Of a stretch of DNA of 26,230 nt, positions 2 through 26,230 are shown piece by piece. Positions within the stretch are counted from its first letter, which is position 1. Each line of letters starts with the position of its first letter. A program made the position numbers and the translations under genes. The notes under the pieces are model-generated. The model searched no databases. It had not been told where the DNA came from and saw nothing but the letters and a program-made list of their open reading frames with translations. This stretch comes from a virus: IMG/VR virus record IMGVR_UViG_3300047998_000159, positions 1 through 26,230 of that record. One strand, 5' to 3'.

Positions 2-226
2 ACAAAGCCGGGGATGCTTTCTGGTGGCATTAAGAATCAGAGCAATAACCAGAACAATCAGTCAAATAGCCCCCCTAACAACGGAATCAAACCAGCTCAA
101 CGCCAGCAAAGGCAGGGAGTCTGGGGTTCAGGCTTTACAAAAGGGGGGTATGGAATGCTCTCTGAGGAAAATGAAAACATGAGACAGTCTGTGGTTGCGG
201 CACTGGAGAAGAAGCTCCTTGGCTAA
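2..226 (+). CDS. 3' end of an unidentified late gene (cut by window start)
   Basis: An open frame runs in from the left edge and ends at the TAA at 224-226; an ATG at 14 is in frame, but the frame is already open before it, so the true start is probably outside the window. The visible 70-75 residues are rich in Asn, Gln and Ser at first, then a Gly-rich stretch (GVWGSGFTKGGYGML), then a short charged helix ending EKKLLG. No family is recognised. The end overlaps the start of the next gene by 8 nt, so the two are probably translated together as part of the late virion operon. Real coding is likely but not certain. Confidence 0.5.
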   Translation, partial: TKPGMLSGGIKNQSNNQNNQSNSPPNNGIKPAQRQQRQGVWGSGFTKGGYGMLSEENENMRQSVVAALEKKLLG

Positions 227-3200
227 TGCGCTTGCCAATCCGCTGTTGGATAGCCCTACTGGACTGTCCTCTGACTTCTCTGTGAATGACATTGATTACG
301 ATGCTCTGTCTGGATTCACTGTGGGGCCGAGCTTCTATAACACAGACGAAGACGGCAACCTTACCTGGGCAGACAATGTTAACGCTGAGCTAATGGGTTC
401 TAATCCCATCATGGGTCTAGCCAGTGGAGCCGGTGGCGGTATGTACATTGGCGAAGACGGCAATATGTATCTCAAGAAAGTCACCTATCACGGAGACGGT
501 CAGCTTCCTGATGACTGGAAGTATGGCGATCCTGTAAACGAAGATGACTGGGTTACTGAGTACACAGATGAGCGCCTGTATTTCTGGTCACCTCCGCAAG
601 AGCTTGGTGACACAGGGCTAAACGGCGATCAAGAAGCGGCTATGGCTGGGCGCGAAAAGGTCGGTTCTGGAGGTTTATACACAGAGGCTCAGATTAAAGA
701 GGCATGGGATGCCAAAGAAGGCATGGGGTATCTCAAGCAACACACTACATGGGATAAGTACTGGAACTTTATTCAGAAAACTTCAGAGCTGTTCGTTGAC
801 TCTGAATTTGACGATAAGACCTATAAAGGAATAACCGCTCCTGGGGGCGGCAACTGGCAAGACAGCCCTGAGTACATGGCCTTGCTGGAAGAGACCGGCA
901 TCCCTACTCAGTACGTTAATGATGACGGTGATGTATTCAACTTTAACGGCACAACCTACGTTAAGGACTATAAGGTTGATGACAGCATAGACATTGGTGT
1001 CATTAATGCTGTTGCTCTGGGTCTTATAGGAAGTTTTATTGCTGGCCCTGCTATTGCTGGGGCATTAGGCCCGATGCTTGGTACGGCTGGAGCTAAAGCC
1101 GCCTCAGCCGCCATTACCAGCCTTGCTAAAGAATATATGCTGACCGGAGAGCTTAGCTTTGAAGACGCCCTAACGTCTGCGGCACTGTCCTATGGTGGCG
1201 CTGAGCTTTCTGATGCTCTTACTGGAGGCGGGGTAATAGGGGATATTGGCTCTAAGCTAACTGACTTTGGCAACAATGTTGTTGATGGTGGTGGCGGCAT
1301 ACTGACAGCCGCACTCCAGGCTGGCGGCATGAACCTAGTTACCCAGCTAGTTAATGAAGGTGAGATTGATTGGAAAGATGCGGCGCAGGCCGCGTTAATG
1401 GCTGGTGGTAGTGCCGCACTGCAGGGCTTCCTTTCTGACATTGGCAAATCTGATGAGATGGACAGCCTCGAGGAGTGGGATGAATACGACGAATGGCAAC
1501 AAGAGGCCATTAGCGCTGACATTAAAGATCCCTTCCTTAACCCTAATTACAAGTCTGTAGGCGATGGCCTTGTGATGAACATTAATACTGGAGAGGTGTT
1601 TGGGCAGGGCGGAATAGACACTACCAGCTACGGCAACTTTGATGATCTAGATAAAGACGGTGATGGCGTTCTAAATGGCAATGACCTTTCGGAGATTACG
1701 ACTCCAGACCGCCCCTATGTAGATCCGCGTCCAAATGATAATCCCTATACGAAGGATGGTGCGCGGGTTTACATAGACTCAGACGGCAATGTCTATACGC
1801 AGGATCAGATAGCGTACTTCTCAAGAGATCAAGATGGCGGGGCCGAGTTTGGTTCGTGGTATCAATTGGAGGACGGGTCAAAAGTCCTGCTTGAGCAAGG
1901 CACTATGATCGGTGGCCGCTATATGTTCGATGGCGATGGTGATGGCGTATTCGATGCCGTTTACAACGAAAACGGAGCAATGGTCGGTAGATATGACCCA
2001 GAGATAAAAGAGTGGGTTGATTATGAGGGAAATGTAAGCGCAAGCATTGGCAACTATATGAATGAGGTCAATGGCGCAGGTAGCGGTACGCCGATTGATA
2101 ACCCATTCAACATGACTAGGGAGCAGTATGACGCTCTAACAGACAAGGAGCTTTTCCAAGACTTCTGGGTTCAGAAGGGTGATCAAGGGATTCTGGCTCT
2201 GACCGATGGAGAGATGGAGGCTCTTGTCGCCAAGTTTGGCTCAGGAGAGGCTTTAGAGGCTCATCTAAAGGCAAATGGATATGGTGTTCATTACTCTGAA
2301 CAGCATGGCTGGAGGCTTGAAGCTGGGGTTGATACCTCTGATGGAATCTATGGAATCAACACTGGTGACAATACGATTGCAGGAATAATTGGTGACCCTA
2401 ATGGCCCTGATGGGCCGCGTTATTGGCAGGGCGAATATGACCCCAATGACCCCAATGCGCCCGCAAAAGAAGACCCCTTCAAAGACCCCCCTAAGCCCCC
2501 TAAGACGCCTGATTCAACTGATAATGGTGGGAATACAGATGGCGCTACAGGGGCTGACAAAACTGGCAATCCTGCTAATCCGGGCGGTGGACCCACTGGT
2601 GGTGGCGGTCCCTCTACTAACGCTAGCGATTACTCTCCTAATCAGTACATCAACATAGCCGTACAGACTGGCCTTACGGTAACGGAGATTATTGACAGGC
2701 TAAATAATGGGGAGACCCCAGAACAGATTGTCTCCAACCCTAGTGGTGAGACTCCTGCAACAAATGGTGACACCCCTACTAACAGTGGTGAGAAGCCAGA
2801 CAATACTCCAACTACAGACACGACACCGCCCTCCGGCACTAACAATGGCGATCCAGCTTATGTAACCCCTACCTTTGCTTGCGATTCGGGATGGGCTGAT
2901 GGGACTGGCGCTTGCGTCCCTGTGGGTGACTCACGATTGCCGGGGCAGGGCGGCGGTAACGGTGACGGGAATACTAATACAGACGGCACTGGCACTGGCG
3001 GCGATGGCACTGGCGGCGATGATGCTGATGGCTCTGGTGACGGCACCACTGGCGGTGATGGAAGTGGCGGCACTGGTGATGAGACCGGCGGAGATGGCAC
3101 TGGTGGTGACGGCACTGGCACTGGAACTGACGGCAACGGCACTGGAAGCGATACTAATGGCAGTGGCGATGGCACTGGAGACGGCACTGGAGATGGTGAG

Positions 3201-3407
3201 GGTGACGGCAATGGCAACGGGAACGGTCTTGGTAATGGCAATGGTCTTGGTAATGGGATGCTTGCTGGGGCTGGTGGCTCTGGCAGACCTGCTTGGGGCG
3301 AGTTGTTTGCGCCTCCTGCGTTTAGGAAGCACACGCCATATCAGTCCAAGGTAACGGGCCGCTTGTTTACAGACATTATGCTGGGTGGAAGAAATGACAT
3401 ATCTTGA
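219..3407 (+). CDS. Large Gly/Asp-rich putative virion protein with EF-hand-like loops
   Basis: This frame of about 1062 aa lies just upstream of the tail-tube genes, so a virion role (neck, tail or adsorption apparatus) is inferred from position; no named family is recognised. There is no ATG near the 5' end. TTG 219 has GGAG at 205-208 and is preferred; TTG 195 would add 8 residues. Residues about 260-300 form a hydrophobic Ala/Gly segment, with a second Ala/Gly-rich stretch near 385-410. A canonical EF-hand loop (DKDGDGVLNGND, about residue 478) and a near match (DGDGDGVFDAVY, about residue 571) suggest calcium binding. Then come a Pro/Asp/Thr-rich linker, a Cys pair in ACDSGWADGTGACVP, a long Gly-Asp-Thr low-complexity region (about residues 922-1012) and a short ordered C-terminus. 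Opposite-strand Pro-rich ORFs here are shadows. Confidence 0.8.
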   Translation: MANALANPLLDSPTGLSSDFSVNDIDYDALSGFTVGPSFYNTDEDGNLTWADNVNAELMGSNPIMGLASGAGGGMYIGEDGNMYLKKVTYHGDGQLPDDWKYGDPVNEDDWVTEYTDERLYFWSPPQELGDTGLNGDQEAAMAGREKVGSGGLYTEAQIKEAWDAKEGMGYLKQHTTWDKYWNFIQKTSELFVDSEFDDKTYKGITAPGGGNWQDSPEYMALLEETGIPTQYVNDDGDVFNFNGTTYVKDYKVDDSIDIGVINAVALGLIGSFIAGPAIAGALGPMLGTAGAKAASAAITSLAKEYMLTGELSFEDALTSAALSYGGAELSDALTGGGVIGDIGSKLTDFGNNVVDGGGGILTAALQAGGMNLVTQLVNEGEIDWKDAAQAALMAGGSAALQGFLSDIGKSDEMDSLEEWDEYDEWQQEAISADIKDPFLNPNYKSVGDGLVMNINTGEVFGQGGIDTTSYGNFDDLDKDGDGVLNGNDLSEITTPDRPYVDPRPNDNPYTKDGARVYIDSDGNVYTQDQIAYFSRDQDGGAEFGSWYQLEDGSKVLLEQGTMIGGRYMFDGDGDGVFDAVYNENGAMVGRYDPEIKEWVDYEGNVSASIGNYMNEVNGAGSGTPIDNPFNMTREQYDALTDKELFQDFWVQKGDQGILALTDGEMEALVAKFGSGEALEAHLKANGYGVHYSEQHGWRLEAGVDTSDGIYGINTGDNTIAGIIGDPNGPDGPRYWQGEYDPNDPNAPAKEDPFKDPPKPPKTPDSTDNGGNTDGATGADKTGNPANPGGGPTGGGGPSTNASDYSPNQYINIAVQTGLTVTEIIDRLNNGETPEQIVSNPSGETPATNGDTPTNSGEKPDNTPTTDTTPPSGTNNGDPAYVTPTFACDSGWADGTGACVPVGDSRLPGQGGGNGDGNTNTDGTGTGGDGTGGDDADGSGDGTTGGDGSGGTGDETGGDGTGGDGTGTGTDGNGTGSDTNGSGDGTGDGTGDGEGDGNGNGNGLGNGNGLGNGMLAGAGGSGRPAWGELFAPPAFRKHTPYQSKVTGRLFTDIMLGGRNDIS
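2983..3255 (+). repeat. Coding low-complexity tract of imperfect GGCACT/GGCGAT-type repeats
   Basis: Within the C-terminal part of the large Gly/Asp-rich protein the DNA becomes an imperfect array of short units such as GGCACTGGC and GGCGATGGC, later GGTAATGGCAATGG. The encoded chain alternates Gly with Asp, Thr, Asn and Ser. Such tracts can expand or contract by slippage or recombination. The composition recalls RTX-type Gly/Asp calcium-binding repeats, but no regular nonapeptide period is visible, so a flexible linker is the safer reading. Confidence 0.75.
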
Positions 3408-16364: not shown

Positions 16365-16568
16365 TTAACAGATGTCGTCTTTCATTGTTGTAAAAGTGCG
16401 CTCGGCGTGGTTAGCTAGCCAATCTCTCAGTTCAATCAGGTTGACGTATTCATGTGAGACGGCGTCCTGAATGGCCTGGGGAAGATGAGAGGTGTTCTGT
16501 TCATCTAGCGCCTTGATGCGCTGTGTTGCAAGCGTTGTCATTATCGTTACATGAGCGGAGTCGAGCAT
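16365..16568 (-). CDS. 67-aa hypothetical protein divergent from the repressor
   Basis: A 67-aa frame transcribed opposite to the repressor. ATG 16568 has GAGGG 10 nt upstream; ATG 16541 (MTTLATQ) is an alternative with no clear ribosome site. The product is helical and mildly acidic (HLPQAIQDAVSHEYVNLIEL, then RDWLANHAERTF), with no recognisable HTH. It lies between the repressor and the leftward early promoter. No family is recognised and coding is only moderately supported. Confidence 0.45.
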   Translation of the reverse strand: MLDSAHVTIMTTLATQRIKALDEQNTSHLPQAIQDAVSHEYVNLIELRDWLANHAERTFTTMKDDIC

Positions 16569-16640
16569 TTCAAAAGCGCCCTCAATTGTAGAAGCTGTTG
16601 GGTTAAACCAGAAGATACACTAACTATAGAGGATGTAAAT

Positions 16641-16997
16641 ATGTCGGATGAAATTCTGTCACCTATTGCACCGAGGGTGTCGGAAATATTTGCCGACAAC
16701 CTGAAGCAGTTTATGGAGCAAAACGAGATCAGCACCAATGGCGTTGCTTTGCGGTCTGGCATTTCACAGAAAACGCTGTGGGTAACGATAAACAAGAAGA
16801 ACATTCCCACCCTGGATACCGCAAACAGAATGTGTGAAGCGCTGAATGTGGACATGAGGGTGATGATGAGTCGATTGCTTCAGCCAGCAGAGCTGAACCG
16901 CACCAAGATTATTGGCAGGGCGATTGACTCCCTGATTTCGCTCCCGACTGAAAGGGTTGCGGCAGTCCGCGAGGTAATGGACGCCTTTTCTAAGTAA
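16641..16997 (+). CDS. XRE/Cro-CI family transcriptional regulator (putative lysogeny repressor)
   Basis: A 118-aa protein. Residues about 14-70 form the HTH_3 domain: FADNLKQFMEQNEISTNGVA, then LRSGISQKTLWVTINKKN with the recognition helix near SQKTLWVTIN, then PTLDTANRMCEALNVDMRVM. The C-terminal 45 residues are helical (KIIGRAIDSLISLPTERVAA) and may dimerise. There is no S24 peptidase domain, so RecA-stimulated self-cleavage is not expected. ATG 16641 is chosen because GAGG lies 8 nt upstream; the frame opens further to 16551. It lies at the divergent boundary with the early operon and close to the integrase, fitting the role of lysogeny repressor. Confidence 0.75.
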   Translation: MSDEILSPIAPRVSEIFADNLKQFMEQNEISTNGVALRSGISQKTLWVTINKKNIPTLDTANRMCEALNVDMRVMMSRLLQPAELNRTKIIGRAIDSLISLPTERVAAVREVMDAFSK

Positions 16998-17101: not shown

Positions 17102-17734
17102 GTGAGCAAGAAAGATAACGGTGTGGTTAATATCCACGGCAAAGAATATCTGACTGTCGCAAGACGGATTAACGATTTCCGCGAGAGGCACCCTGATTAC
17201 GGCATTCACACAGAGATCCTGTCTATCGACGAGGCAACAGTGGTTTGTCGGGCGGTGATTACTGATGCTGAGGGTCGCCAGCTATCAAGCGGTATTGCTG
17301 AGGAGCATCGCCGCGCATCCAAGATCAACCAGACCAGTGCGACTGAAAACTGTGAGACCTCTGCTGTGGGTAGGGCGCTTGCGTTCTTGGGTATGGCTGG
17401 CACTGAGATTGCCAGTGCTGATGAGGTCGCTGGTGCTATCAGCCAGCAGAAGCAGAACGAGGTAGACGAGGGGCTGATGGCTCACGCCGTAGCGGTGCGG
17501 GAAAACCTAGATGAAATCCACATGATGAAGACCGCCATGCAGGAGGAGGATTACATGACCGCCGCTGGCATCTTCATGGATTGGGATGAGGACACGCTTC
17601 AGGCATTGCGCCGCGCCCCCTCAAAAGGCGGGGTGTGGACAACGGCAGAGGTCGCATTGCTGAAGGCTGATGGCGCTGTCGGTAAGTGTGTATCAACAAT
17701 CAAAAAGCAAGACTATGCAGAGGCTAACGCATGA
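17102..17734 (+). CDS. Possible ssDNA-annealing-type recombination protein
   Basis: A 210-aa protein starting with GTG 17102, which has a perfect AGGAGG 5 nt upstream. The N-terminal half has IHGKEYLTVARRINDFRERH, then alternating strands, then KINQTSATENCETSAVGRAL followed by AFLGMAG. The 'TSA.E.AETSA.GRALA..G' motif is common to a group of phage proteins found beside SSB and exonuclease genes and often treated as annealing or ERF/Rad52-like proteins. I could not prove membership. The C-terminal half is acidic and helical. The next gene, joined by ATGA, is SSB-like, which supports a recombination role. Confidence 0.5.
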   Translation: MSKKDNGVVNIHGKEYLTVARRINDFRERHPDYGIHTEILSIDEATVVCRAVITDAEGRQLSSGIAEEHRRASKINQTSATENCETSAVGRALAFLGMAGTEIASADEVAGAISQQKQNEVDEGLMAHAVAVRENLDEIHMMKTAMQEEDYMTAAGIFMDWDEDTLQALRRAPSKGGVWTTAEVALLKADGAVGKCVSTIKKQDYAEANA

Positions 17735-17970
17735 AGAACATCAAGAAATTGATGGTCCCGAAAGGGGAGTATACCGACAAGCAGACCGGCGAGACTAAAA
17801 CTAACTGGCTCAACATCGGTGTGCTTCAGTCTGACGGCAACGGAAAATACAAGGTCAAGCTGGATAGCATCCCTGTCGGGGACTTCAGCGGGTGGGTTGA
17901 ATGTTTTGATATTGAGCCACGGCAAGGCGGACAGGCCGGTGGCTCCAACAAGATGGCGGGGTGGGACTGA
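17731..17970 (+). CDS. Small SSB-like protein
   Basis: A 79-aa protein with a strand-rich pattern (GEYTDKQTGETKTNWLNIGV, then LQSDGNGKYKVKLDSIP, then WVECFD) typical of short phage OB-fold-like single-stranded DNA-binding proteins, ending with a Gly/Gln-rich tail and GWD. It is shorter than bacterial SSB (about 170 aa) and lacks the usual acidic DDDIPF tip. The start overlaps the preceding gene as ATGA and the stop overlaps the next gene as TGATG. The call is by pattern and context. Confidence 0.5.
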   Translation: MKNIKKLMVPKGEYTDKQTGETKTNWLNIGVLQSDGNGKYKVKLDSIPVGDFSGWVECFDIEPRQGGQAGGSNKMAGWD

Positions 17971-18191
17971 TGGATAACAGCACATTTTTTAAGCACAGCG
18001 AACTGCTTGAGTTCGCCGGGGTAAAGCAGGTGGATGCGCTCATGCGGTGGCTAGACAAGCAAAGTATCCCCTACTTGGTTGATGCAAGGGGAAGGCCAAA
18101 GGTAAAGTACGCATCCGTTGAGAAACATTATGTGACCCAGGATGCCAAAGAGGAAAGAGTCGGGTTTGCCCCCGTACACCAGCCGGGATAA
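17970..18191 (+). CDS. DUF4224-like small DNA-binding protein (possible excisionase)
   Basis: A 73-aa protein: FFKHSELLEFAGVKQVDALM, then RWLDKQSIPYLVDARGRPKV. The pattern 'L...EL.E.TG.K....Q..WL...GI.F.....GRP.V' is the DUF4224 signature, found in small proteins encoded directly before phage integrases and thought to act as excision or directionality factors. ATG 17970 overlaps the preceding stop (TGATG). Its 3' end overlaps the integrase by 50 nt, the usual arrangement for this pair. Confidence 0.65.
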   Translation: MDNSTFFKHSELLEFAGVKQVDALMRWLDKQSIPYLVDARGRPKVKYASVEKHYVTQDAKEERVGFAPVHQPG

Positions 18192-19149
18192 GGTTCGGGG
18201 CGTTGTCTTCCGCCCTTACATGGGGAGGGTGGATGGCAAAATCAGGTGGGGTTCTAGAGTTTGGCTCGCCCCACTTGATGCCCCTCTTTCAGAAGTATGG
18301 GCGAGATATGAAGCCCTCCATGCAGAGCAACAGCACACTGTAACCTGGCTCCTGCAAACCTATTTTGGTAGCCGCCAGTTTAATAATCTCAGAGTCAAGA
18401 CTCAGACTGATTACCGCAGTCGCGCCAACACCTTAGAAAATATGCTGATGACTAACGGCAAGCCGTTCGGCCAATTGCTGTTGAGCCAAGTGGACCGCTA
18501 CCTACTCAGAGAATACCTAGACCTAAGCCCTCACCCTGTCAGCGCAAATAGGCAGATAGCCGTACTCAGCTCGGCGTGGGCGTGGGCCTTAGAGCGGTAC
18601 AAGATTCCCGCCAATGCCTGCAAAGAGGTAAAGCCCAATAAAGAAAGACCGCGTACCCGATATGTGAATGACCAGGAATATCGCAGGGCAAAGAGCCTTG
18701 CTCCCCCTTGGTTACAGGTGGCGATGGACCTTTCCTATATCTGCCGAGCGAGAAGGGGTGAGGTATTGGCGCTGACCTTTAACCATGTGCAAGACGATGG
18801 CCTATTGATTAGCCGTAGCAAGGGCAGTAAAGCTGAGGTCACGCAGTGGACTCCGGCGCTTAGGTCGGTGGTCGATAGCGCGAGGTCGCTGTCTGGGGTG
18901 GGAGATCATCTGGTTAGGACTAGCGCCGGTCACATCCGCGTCCCGCAATTTGATTCCGCATGGCGCAGACTGATGGCAAAGGTGGCTGAGTTAGGCGGCG
19001 CAAAGTTTTCGTATCACGATATTAAGGCTAAGGGGCTGTCAGATATGCATGAACCCTGGGCCGGTCACAAGTCTGATTCGATGCTGGATACCTATGTCCG
19101 CACACCCAGGAAAATCACTCCCGATTATGCAGATAATGCTGACGTTTAA
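18142..19149 (+). CDS. int: Phage integrase, tyrosine recombinase family
   Basis: A 335-aa tyrosine recombinase. The N-terminal 60 residues include basic strands for arm-type DNA binding (KVRGVVFRPYMGRVDGKIRW). A SAM-like core-binding domain spans about residues 62-155. The catalytic domain shows R204 in ICRARRGEVLALTF, a Lys in SKGSKAEV (K227 or K230), H292 in YHDIKAKG, H309 in WAGHKS and the nucleophile Y318 in LDTYVR. The HxxR motif reads HxxK, a variant known among phage integrases. The gene ends about 80 bp before the tRNA-derived attP core and overlaps the Xis-like gene, so it should integrate the phage at a host tRNA gene. Confidence 0.9.
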   Translation: MPKRKESGLPPYTSRDKVRGVVFRPYMGRVDGKIRWGSRVWLAPLDAPLSEVWARYEALHAEQQHTVTWLLQTYFGSRQFNNLRVKTQTDYRSRANTLENMLMTNGKPFGQLLLSQVDRYLLREYLDLSPHPVSANRQIAVLSSAWAWALERYKIPANACKEVKPNKERPRTRYVNDQEYRRAKSLAPPWLQVAMDLSYICRARRGEVLALTFNHVQDDGLLISRSKGSKAEVTQWTPALRSVVDSARSLSGVGDHLVRTSAGHIRVPQFDSAWRRLMAKVAELGGAKFSYHDIKAKGLSDMHEPWAGHKSDSMLDTYVRTPRKITPDYADNADV

Positions 19150-19155
19150 ATTCTG

Positions 19156-19383
19156 TTACCCACAGTGTTATCCCACAAAGGCGAGTTAATTATTGGGCCT
19201 CTCCTCTAAGCGGCATAAACACTGGGTTTAATGGCGCGGAATAGAGGATTCGAACCTCTGACCTTCGGTTTCGTAGGTAGACATGCAATGGCTTAACGGT
19301 GCGGGTTACAGCGGGATTGTGGGATAAAGCGCGGGAGTATAGATTGGCTTGAAAGCTAGGCTTGGCGGGACTTTTATCCCACA
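19156..19383. promoter_or_regulatory. attP arm-type integrase sites (TTATCCCACA repeats)
   Basis: TTATCCCACA occurs at 19168-19177 and 19374-19383 on the plus strand and as its reverse complement TGTGGGATAA at 19318-19327. A shortened copy, TTACCCACA, lies at 19156-19164. The copies lie on both sides of the tRNA-like core, as P and P' arm sites do. Between 19150 and 19417 no convincing gene is present; the 64-aa frame here is the tRNA half read as protein. Confidence 0.6.
19232..19277 (-). other. attP core: 3' half of a tRNA-Arg(ACG)-like gene
   Basis: On the minus strand this reads as an anticodon loop CTACGAA (U33, anticodon ACG, A37, A38), the 3' anticodon stem strand ACCGA, a 5-nt variable loop AGGTC, a perfect T arm (AGAGG, TTCGAAT, CCTCT), the 3' acceptor strand ATTCCGC, G and CCA. 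The bases just 5' of the loop (TCTAC) do not pair with ACCGA, and no D arm or 5' acceptor strand exists, so it is not a complete tRNA gene. This is the classic attP pattern for a tyrosine integrase that recombines in the anticodon loop and restores the host tRNA. Confidence 0.8.
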
Positions 19384-23595: not shown

Positions 23596-25731
23596 ATGGC
23601 TGATTTAGAGCATTTAGGTATAGAACACGGGCTGTGTGAGTGGCTTGAGACGTTGACTTTAGAGTGGAGAGACCACTATGAAGGGAACTACGAGGACAAG
23701 CACGACGAGTACTATCGCCTTTGGCGCGGCATTTGGGCGGAGAACGATAAAACCCGTCAATCTGAGCGTAGCCGAATCATCGCTCCGGCACTACAGCAGG
23801 CTGTTGAGAGTGCTGTTGCTGAAATTGAGACTGCTTCCTTTAGTCAGGCATTCATGTTTGACATTGAAGACAGTCAAAAGACTCCACCCCCACCCCCGCA
23901 GGGCCAACAGCCGACAAGTGGACCCCAGATGCCTATGCCGGGGGCGGGTGGTGGACCACCAATGCCACCCCAGGGGCCGCAAAACCAGCCAACACCAGCC
24001 GAAACCGTTGCTGTACGCGATCAACTGCACAAAGACATAGAGCGAGCCAACTACAGGGCCGCTATTGGCGAGGTTTTAATCAATGCCGCTGTCTACGGTA
24101 CTGGTATTGCTGAGCTAGTCATTGAAGATTCCAAAGAATATGTGCCTTCTACTCAGCCATTAGAGGGTATGCCGCAGGAAGCTTCACTGGTTGAGTACGG
24201 AGTACAGACTAAGACCAGACCTATTGTTAAGTTAAACCCTGTTCAGCCTAAAAACTTCCTGATTGACCCTAATGCCACCTGTGTAAGCAGTGCTATGGGC
24301 GTTTGTATTGAAGAGTTTGTCTCTATCCACACTGTTGAGCAGTTACAAGAATTAGGTGTTTACAGGGATGAGGACATTGGCACTGATGCCAGTGACCCCT
24401 CCGTTGATGCTGACGATGAATTGGTCACTCAGCCCTTAAGAAAGGTAAAAGTTAAGCGATATTACGGGTTAGTGCCTACTGACCTGCTTAAAGATGAGGG
24501 TGTTGACTCTGATTTGCTAGAAGACGGCAAGTACACAGAGGCCGTTGTGGTGATTGGTAACGGCAAGATCCTCAAGGCACAGTCTAATCCCTACATGTGC
24601 AAGGATCGGCCCATAGCGGCCTTCCCATGGGACGTAGTGCCTAGCCGCTTTTGGGGCCGTGGTGTGTGCGAAAAGGGCTATATGAGCCAGAAGGCTCTAG
24701 ATGCCGAAATGAGAGCCAGGATTGATGCTCTGGCACTCACTACCCACCCCATGATGGCGGTAGATGCGACCAGAATCCCCAGAGGGGACAAGTTTGAGGT
24801 CCGTCCCGGCAAGATGATCCTGACTAACGGCGCTCCACAAGAGTCAATCATGCCGTTTAAGTTTGGTCAGGTAGATCAGATCAGTTTCAACCAAGCTCAG
24901 AACCTACAGATGATGGTTCAGCAGGCTACAGGCTCGCAGGACGCCGCTGAGATGGCTAAAGGGCCGTCATCAGACACAACTGCCGCTGGTATCAGCATGA
25001 GCATGGGCGCTGTTATGAAGCGTCAGCGCCGTACTCTGGTCAACTTCCAAGAATCCTTCTTTAAGCCCCTAATCAAGAAGACTGCTTGGCGTTATATGCA
25101 GTTTGATCCAGAGAAGTATCCAAGCAAGGACTACCATTTCAGCGTGGTGTCCAGCTTGGGGGTAATTGCTAGGGAATATGAGGTAAGCCAGCTTGCTCAA
25201 ATCTTGCAGGTTATCCCGCCCAACACTCCAGCACACGGCGCGATGATTAAAGCGATCATCGAACACATGAACGTGACCTCTAAGGAACAGCTCTTGCGGG
25301 TTATCGATCAGAGTAATCAGCCAAACCCCCAGGCACAGCAGGCTCAGCAGGCTCAGATGCAAGCCCAGATGGAATTGCAGAAAGCTCAAACAGCGGTGTT
25401 GATGGCCCAAGCGGAAGAGGCCAAAGGCAGGGCCGCGAAGTACGCAGTCGAAACAGACCTCATGCCAAAAGAGACAGTCTTGAAATACAGCGATCAAGAT
25501 AAGGACGGAAAGATCGACGATGACTTTGAGCAAAAGGTAAAGCTGGCTCAGATGCTCATGGAAGAGGACCGTTGGAATGTAGAAAAGGAGGAGCGTGTCT
25601 CAAAGCTCCAGATGGCGCAACAGGAAGCACAGCGCAAGCAACAGGAACAACAGCAACTACAGCAGATGATTTCCGATAGCTCGGATATGTTAGGTCAAGT
25701 AACCATTGAGAAGGATGGACCACTGCAATGA
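23596..25731 (+). CDS. Portal (head-tail connector) protein with Pro-rich insert and EF-hand-like loop
   Basis: A 711-aa portal, the dodecameric channel through which DNA passes. It begins with a helical region (WRDHYEGNYEDKHDEYYRLW) and has the typical portal stretch AAVYGTGIAELVIEDSKEYV, a long crown/wing region with FPWDVVPSRFWGRGVCEKGY, and SSDTTAAGISMSMGAVMKRQ near the stem. Two unusual parts stand out: a Pro/Gly/Gln-rich insert at about residues 92-137 (TPPPPPQGQQ...), and near residues 633-645 a near-canonical EF-hand loop (DQDKDGKIDDDFE). The C-terminus is Gln-rich coiled coil. It follows the large terminase directly and overlaps the next gene as ATGA. Confidence 0.85.
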   Translation: MADLEHLGIEHGLCEWLETLTLEWRDHYEGNYEDKHDEYYRLWRGIWAENDKTRQSERSRIIAPALQQAVESAVAEIETASFSQAFMFDIEDSQKTPPPPPQGQQPTSGPQMPMPGAGGGPPMPPQGPQNQPTPAETVAVRDQLHKDIERANYRAAIGEVLINAAVYGTGIAELVIEDSKEYVPSTQPLEGMPQEASLVEYGVQTKTRPIVKLNPVQPKNFLIDPNATCVSSAMGVCIEEFVSIHTVEQLQELGVYRDEDIGTDASDPSVDADDELVTQPLRKVKVKRYYGLVPTDLLKDEGVDSDLLEDGKYTEAVVVIGNGKILKAQSNPYMCKDRPIAAFPWDVVPSRFWGRGVCEKGYMSQKALDAEMRARIDALALTTHPMMAVDATRIPRGDKFEVRPGKMILTNGAPQESIMPFKFGQVDQISFNQAQNLQMMVQQATGSQDAAEMAKGPSSDTTAAGISMSMGAVMKRQRRTLVNFQESFFKPLIKKTAWRYMQFDPEKYPSKDYHFSVVSSLGVIAREYEVSQLAQILQVIPPNTPAHGAMIKAIIEHMNVTSKEQLLRVIDQSNQPNPQAQQAQQAQMQAQMELQKAQTAVLMAQAEEAKGRAAKYAVETDLMPKETVLKYSDQDKDGKIDDDFEQKVKLAQMLMEEDRWNVEKEERVSKLQMAQQEAQRKQQEQQQLQQMISDSSDMLGQVTIEKDGPLQ

Positions 25732-26230
25732 GTGATTTCACATTAGTTGAGATCCTTAATCTCGTTCGTGCTGAGATAGCGCGGACTGAGATAGGTGACG
25801 TTAAGCGCATCACTGGACCGCAGGGTGAGCGCGGCCCTCAGGGTGAGCAAGGTATTCAGGGGCCACAAGGCCCGAGAGGTAATGACGGCAAGCAAGGCCC
25901 AGCCGGTATTAAAGGTAATCAGGGCAAGAAAGGCGACAAGGGTGTTAAGGGCGCTGACGGTGATGATGGCGTAGGTATTGCGCGCATTGACCAAGACAGT
26001 GTTGATGGCTCTGTTGTCATGTACCTGACTGACGGCACTAGCTACACGGTTGAAATGCCGCTGGTTGACAGTGAGGGCAACCTAAGCCGTGAAGTTCACT
26101 ACAAGTCTGGTGGTGGCGGCGGCGGGGGAACGGTTGACCTATCAAAGTATGTGAAGCGACCGACCAATACCCATGATGGCAAGTGGTTAGTTTACAGAGA
26201 GCCAGATGGCAGTAACCAAGGTGAATGGTC
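25728..26230 (+). CDS. Collagen-like fibre protein, 5' part (cut by window end)
   Basis: The frame starts at ATG 25728, overlapping the portal stop as ATGA, and is still open at the window end (167 codons visible). After an N-terminal helix (FTLVEILNLVRAEIARTEIG) come about 18 Gly-X-Y triplets (GPQGERGPQGEQ... to GDDGVG), which should form a trimeric collagen-like rod. A beta region follows (VMYLTDGTSYTVEMPLVDSE), then GGGGGG, then a new domain start KYVKRPTNTHDGKW. Collagen-like rods occur in phage tail fibres, tail needles and capsid fibres; the place after the portal does not decide which. Promotion of trimer assembly by the N-terminal helix is inferred. Confidence 0.85.
   Translation, partial: MSDFTLVEILNLVRAEIARTEIGDVKRITGPQGERGPQGEQGIQGPQGPRGNDGKQGPAGIKGNQGKKGDKGVKGADGDDGVGIARIDQDSVDGSVVMYLTDGTSYTVEMPLVDSEGNLSREVHYKSGGGGGGGTVDLSKYVKRPTNTHDGKWLVYREPDGSNQGEW

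Follow-up and report, generated by a model that had tools for sequence, protein, structure and literature searches.

A tRNA-Arg(ACG)-type phage attachment site that points to a Luminiphilus-type host

Introduction

Attachment sites centred on the anticodon loop of a tRNA gene form a standard class (PMC4383910). In the class A (anticodon-centred) tRNA islands of Islander, the tDNA fragment on attP restores the interrupted gene, and the crossover belongs to the anticodon-loop class (PMC4383910). Among the closest known systems is that of phage mEp390, whose annotated attP is of the tRNA-Leu type. Its excisionase gene is followed by the integrase gene and then by a core that consists of a tRNA 3' half starting at the anticodon loop, with the CCA side towards the integrase gene. 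Arm repeats lie at +40 (inverted) and +104 (direct), box II of the integrase reads HDLK, and a compensatory pair in the T stem sets the carried half apart from the usual E. coli gene. Phages ST64B of Salmonella and ZF40 of Pectobacterium have the same gene order and arm geometry, with cores that are the 3' halves of tRNA-Ser and tRNA-Leu, respectively. The ST64B core differs from the E. coli tRNA-Ser gene, which is not that of Salmonella itself, only in the variable region and the T arm, mostly at paired positions.

Here we describe a locus in an uncultured phage that resembles these systems in each of the features listed for mEp390, including the lysine in box II, but that carries the 3' half of a tRNA-Arg gene. 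Its integrase is only about 30% identical to those of the three phages (about 32% for mEp390 and 28-31% for ST64B and ZF40), and its arm repeat differs from theirs, being TTATCCCACA where mEp390 has AATGGCGAA. As in the Islander class A islands, the carried fragment would restore the gene through an anticodon-loop crossover; unlike them, it has compensatory T-arm changes relative to the nearest host gene, a point left undiscussed in the portions of PMC4383910 drawn on here.

Results

Genomic context and the integrase gene

We analysed a stretch of 26,230 nt (hereafter the window) that makes up IMG/VR record IMGVR_UViG_3300047998_000159, which we read as deriving from a marine temperate phage. 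A DNA similarity search with the window gave no match among named phages. The record has no terminal repeats, and no capsid gene was identified downstream of the portal gene (positions 23596-26230 and 1-226, with the part from 25731 to the end looked at less closely); the related phage records L030 and L032 extend to 38 kb. The record is probably incomplete, a fragment of a larger genome. Near its start, a large gene (195-3407) encodes a long C-terminal Gly/Asp/Thr-rich stretch of GDGTGG-like repeats (window positions 2858-3350).

Three plus-strand genes assigned by profile matches precede the attachment site. A Cro/C1-type helix-turn-helix regulator (16551..16997; PF13443, E=3.6e-6) is a candidate lysogeny repressor. 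An excisionase-like gene of the DUF4224 family (17961..18191; PF13986, E=8.6e-6; phrog_4764 excisionase, E=4.3e-8) lies upstream of the gene for a tyrosine integrase of 335 amino acids (18142..19149; phrog_1 integrase, E=1.3e-29). Between the regulator and the excisionase-like gene, positions 17102-17734 encode a protein of unknown function (phrog_11717) that is 77% identical at the nucleotide level to its counterpart in the otherwise distant L032, a possible sign, judged from this similarity, of gene exchange within the host group.

A Pfam search with the integrase returned nothing at E<=0.001. Its closest solved structure is lambda Int, with whose box I arginine R204 aligns, and H292, H309 and Y318 are present at the catalytic positions. 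The catalytic R, H, H/W and Y are thus in place, and the position of the second R in HxxR is taken by a basic residue, K295. We considered whether the resulting HDIK motif marks a dead integrase and rejected this, because the integrases of ZF40, mEp390 and ST64B all have the same lysine, which is therefore typical of these relatives and not a sign of decay.

The core is the 3' half of a tRNA-Arg(ACG) gene

The attP core begins 82 bp beyond the integrase stop codon at position 19149 and occupies 19232..19276 on the minus strand. Aligned with the host tRNA described below, it starts at C32, the first base of the anticodon loop, extends to CCA and reads, in order, the anticodon loop CTACGAA (19270..19276, minus strand), ACCGA, AGGTC, a T arm of AGAGG, TTCGAAT and CCTCT (19243..19259, minus strand), the acceptor strand ATTCCGC, G and CCA. 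ARAGORN calls no complete tRNA in the window, and the 5' half is missing, so that what is present is the 3' tRNA fragment from anticodon loop to gene end that characterizes the anticodon-loop class. When the host 5' half and the phage 3' half are joined in silico, ARAGORN calls a tRNA-Arg(acg), whereas attP alone is not called.

An earlier note, made from the sequence alone, had described such a minus-strand half tRNA without a 5' half and with repeats on both sides in both orientations, about 80 bp from the end of the integrase gene, and all of this is borne out. It had put the half at 19232-19277 (46 bp). The start stands, but the end moves to 19276 and the length to 45 nt because base 31 (position 19277), a C in the phage, is a T in the host tRNA. 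Identity with the host sequence begins at the anticodon loop. The putative crossover is placed within that loop on two grounds, the established class of anticodon-loop sites and the lysogen of E. coli described below.

The core is conserved in three related IMG/VR records, L004 and L005 (integrases 92% identical) and L003 (integrase 76% identical over the available fragment; about 72% nucleotide identity to the window). An alignment of the attachment region shows the 45-nt core to be identical in L003 and L004 and to have one T-loop change in L005. The flanking sequence has diverged among these records, so that the core stands out as a conserved island.

A further motif, GCATAAACACTG, lies on the integrase side of the core at 19213-19224; it is retained in L003, and almost fully in L004 and L005, and occurs on the opposite side of the core in L045, from the same contig as L032. 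It may be a site for an accessory factor or the excisionase. For IHF, only matches with two mismatches were seen, and these were left uncounted.

The tRNA half points to a Luminiphilus-type host

We scanned the sampled genomes (genome_contigs) for an exact 40-mer of the core and found it in none of them. We replaced this search with a relaxed tRNA pattern that left free the outer pairs of the T stem, as well as some positions in loops and stems. Among 84,980 species, only 20 loci matched, all with titles naming Luminiphilus or Halieaceae and all intact tRNA-Arg(ACG) genes; Luminiphilus is classified in the Halieaceae (Gammaproteobacteria). The signature was matched by 19 of 140 Halieaceae genomes, and tRNA-Arg(ACG) was single-copy in six of the seven genomes tested. 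The Halieaceae metagenome-assembled genome SI073_bin195 has two intact copies (L015 and L023) with differing downstream sequences, which suggests either a mixture of strains or an integrated element.

The commonest host tRNA-Arg(ACG) is GCGGAATTAGCTCAGCTGGATAGAGCGTCGGT followed by CTACGAAACCGAAGGTCGCAGGTTCGACTCCTGCATTCCGCGCCA. The window core is identical to it at 40 of 45 nt, and all five differences fall in the T arm, which in the host reads GCAGG, TTCGACT and CCTGC: two base pairs are changed on both strands, in compensatory fashion, along with one loop base. In its anticodon-stem and acceptor strands, the phage half is a perfect match for the common host 5' half; in the minority of hosts whose anticodon stem is CCGGT/ACCGG, one further position differs from the window core. 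Other phages bear on the same lineage. In L029/L030 and L032, whose integrases are related but more distant and lie directly beside the core, the core is identical to the Luminiphilus half at all 45 positions. L044 has a third T-arm version, ATAGG/CCTAT; its ACCGG strand is complementary to the CCGGT allele of some hosts.

From these tRNA comparisons, the host is most likely a Luminiphilus-type bacterium of the Halieaceae (OM60/NOR5 clade), resolved to lineage only. Searches for the phage itself in this group gave little. No near match to the core (<=3 mismatches) was found in 392 genomes of the order, no integrase gene lies beside the 20 host tRNA genes, and the 140 Halieaceae genomes contain no close relative of the integrase, with matches of 29-33% identity in three genomes only. 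The best terminase match in the same 140 genomes was 42% over half the protein, which gives no clear host signal. Since no close integrase was found there, no lysogen of the window phage has been seen, and we infer its integration in the true host.

The suggestion that the tRNA half could name the host thus proved sound, the acceptor strand having led to the Luminiphilus/Halieaceae lineage. The two checks proposed with it went otherwise: no prophage with a close relative of the window integrase turned up in the 140 genomes, and no sampled genome has the exact core, the outcome that the earlier note had named as counting against the site. On the shared core, the expectation fails for an exact match but holds in a weaker form, in that the Luminiphilus tRNA is only five T-arm bases off with pairing kept, and L030 and L032 carry the exact Luminiphilus half.

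The missing exact match could also mean that the attP is real but that the phage has a host from a lineage not yet sampled, within the Halieaceae or beyond, with the AGAGG/CCTCT T arm in its own tRNA-Arg(ACG). The constancy of the T arm in the window, L003 and L004 (with one T-loop base off in L005), despite divergence elsewhere, would fit such an unchanging host gene. However, the search pattern left the outer T-stem pairs free, yet all 20 matches had GC/GC there, and mEp390-type phages integrate at tRNA-Leu despite a T stem unlike that of the usual E. coli gene. We regard an unsampled host of this kind as possible rather than probable, and hold equally tentatively what it implies, that the gene of such a host would be copied exactly in the phage half. 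The T arm leaves two options: the true host may be an unsampled relative that has the AGAGG T arm, or the part of the phage half that pairs with itself may have drifted.

Repeated arm sites flank the core at conserved distances

The 10-bp repeat TTATCCCACA occurs three times in the window (forward, reverse, forward), and only around the core. A P arm site on the integrase side (19168..19177, plus strand) lies 54 bp from the core and is found at the same place in L003, L004 and L005. On the other side, beyond the anticodon edge of the core, lie P' arm site 1 (19318..19327, minus strand), inverted, at a distance of 41 bp, and P' arm site 2 (19374..19383, plus strand), direct, at 97 bp. In 2000 dinucleotide-shuffled versions of the 241-bp region, no 10-mer ever occurred three times. 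In the three close relatives, the arm sites keep the same distances as in the window with at most one mismatch.

We extended the comparison to ten records. All ten have at least one arm repeat on the integrase side and a tRNA half with its CCA towards the integrase gene, an inverted arm repeat at +40 to +53 bp past the anticodon edge, and a further repeat at +97 to +113 bp, direct in eight and inverted in L043 and L044. The arm motifs were chosen from repeats within these same regions, so that their presence was selected for but their matching positions were not. The repeat sequences themselves vary among the ten records (TTATCCCACA, GTTACCTCA, TCACTCCCA, AATGGCGAA, TATTAGGAA and TTTTCTCA). 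This is strong comparative evidence for TTATCCCACA as the putative integrase arm site, and repeated arm sites on both sides of the core are what is expected for a heterobivalent integrase.

A repeat sequence alone names no protein, and the arm assignment is a reading of sequence; the copies might in principle be operators or replication iterons. We think this very unlikely, because their number, orientation and spacing agree with those around other integrases of the family whose repeats differ in sequence, and because TTATCCCACA is absent elsewhere in the window. That the tRNA half, being only half a tRNA, is the decayed remnant of a phage-borne tRNA or a past host gene in a phage that now integrates elsewhere is scarcely credible, given that pairing is kept, that the core is conserved while its neighbours diverge and that in ten records the arm sites keep almost constant distances to it.

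An E. coli lysogen with a related integrase has both expected junctions

The junctions predicted for this type of integration are both seen in E. coli 2017C-4173W12 (NZ_CP030768). Its prophage lies beside tRNA-Leu and has a DUF4224 gene immediately upstream of an integrase gene of the mEp390 type. Unlike the window, this E. coli relative has siphovirus-type virion genes. At the integrase end there is an intact tRNA-Leu with the T stem GTGGG/CCCAC, as in mEp390 attP, and at the far end a displaced half with the native-type GCGGG/CCCGC. The arm sites are divided between the prophage ends, with one inverted and one direct at the far end. Exchange therefore took place upstream of the T arm and swapped in that of the phage, as proposed for the window.

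In the E. coli set, the mEp390-type core was matched by 5239 records at 95-99% identity and by 125 at >=99%. In another E. coli record (NZ_CP025913, L047), the tRNA-Leu at positions 2471-2557 has the phage-type T stem and adjoins a different integrase gene. Judging from this case and the 125 close matches, swapped tRNA-Leu alleles may persist after the phage is lost.

Discussion

Taken together, the conservation of the core, the host tRNA genes, the arm geometry and the E. coli lysogen support the earlier identification of a phage attP that uses tRNA-Arg(ACG), with its use in the true host predicted from them. We consider it very probable that the locus serves as attP in a temperate podovirus-like phage whose integrase, with its TTATCCCACA arms, restores the tRNA-Arg(ACG) gene of a Luminiphilus-type host. 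The tyrosine integrase would bind the three arm sites and the core and recombine the latter with the host gene in the region of the anticodon loop. The 5' half would stay with the host and the 3' half would come from the phage, so that the gene would again encode a functional tRNA-Arg(ACG), now with a new T arm. Next to the integrase gene, the restored gene would form attL, and at the opposite end the displaced 3' half of the host gene would form attR. Excisionase function would fall to the DUF4224 protein.

The attP is well supported as an ordinary tRNA-type site that works by an otherwise well-known mechanism, with a new assignment of host lineage. What is added here is that lineage, the arm geometry conserved across the integrase family, and the observation that carried halves differ in the T arm by compensatory changes. 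In a limited literature search, we found no description of such differences, and likewise no temperate phage of Luminiphilus (OM60/NOR5) in the open literature.

The T-arm differences recur in the window (AGAGG/CCTCT), in L044 (ATAGG/CCTAT), in mEp390-type phages with tRNA-Leu, for which the swap is seen in the E. coli lysogen, and in the tRNA-Ser half of ST64B relative to the E. coli gene. They raise the possibility, which we judge evenly balanced, of a general rule for anticodon-loop integrases: the carried tRNA half would evolve independently, mainly where it is self-paired (the T arm and variable arm), while the strands that pair with the host half (the anticodon and acceptor stems) stay matched, and lysogeny would swap a new T-arm allele into an essential tRNA.

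Forty-five bases thus give a testable host assignment, to the OM60/NOR5 clade, for a group of uncultured marine phages, and the comparative layout allows the arm sites and tRNA target of this integrase family to be read straight from sequence. If the T-arm rule is true, phages would supply bacteria with new tRNA alleles.
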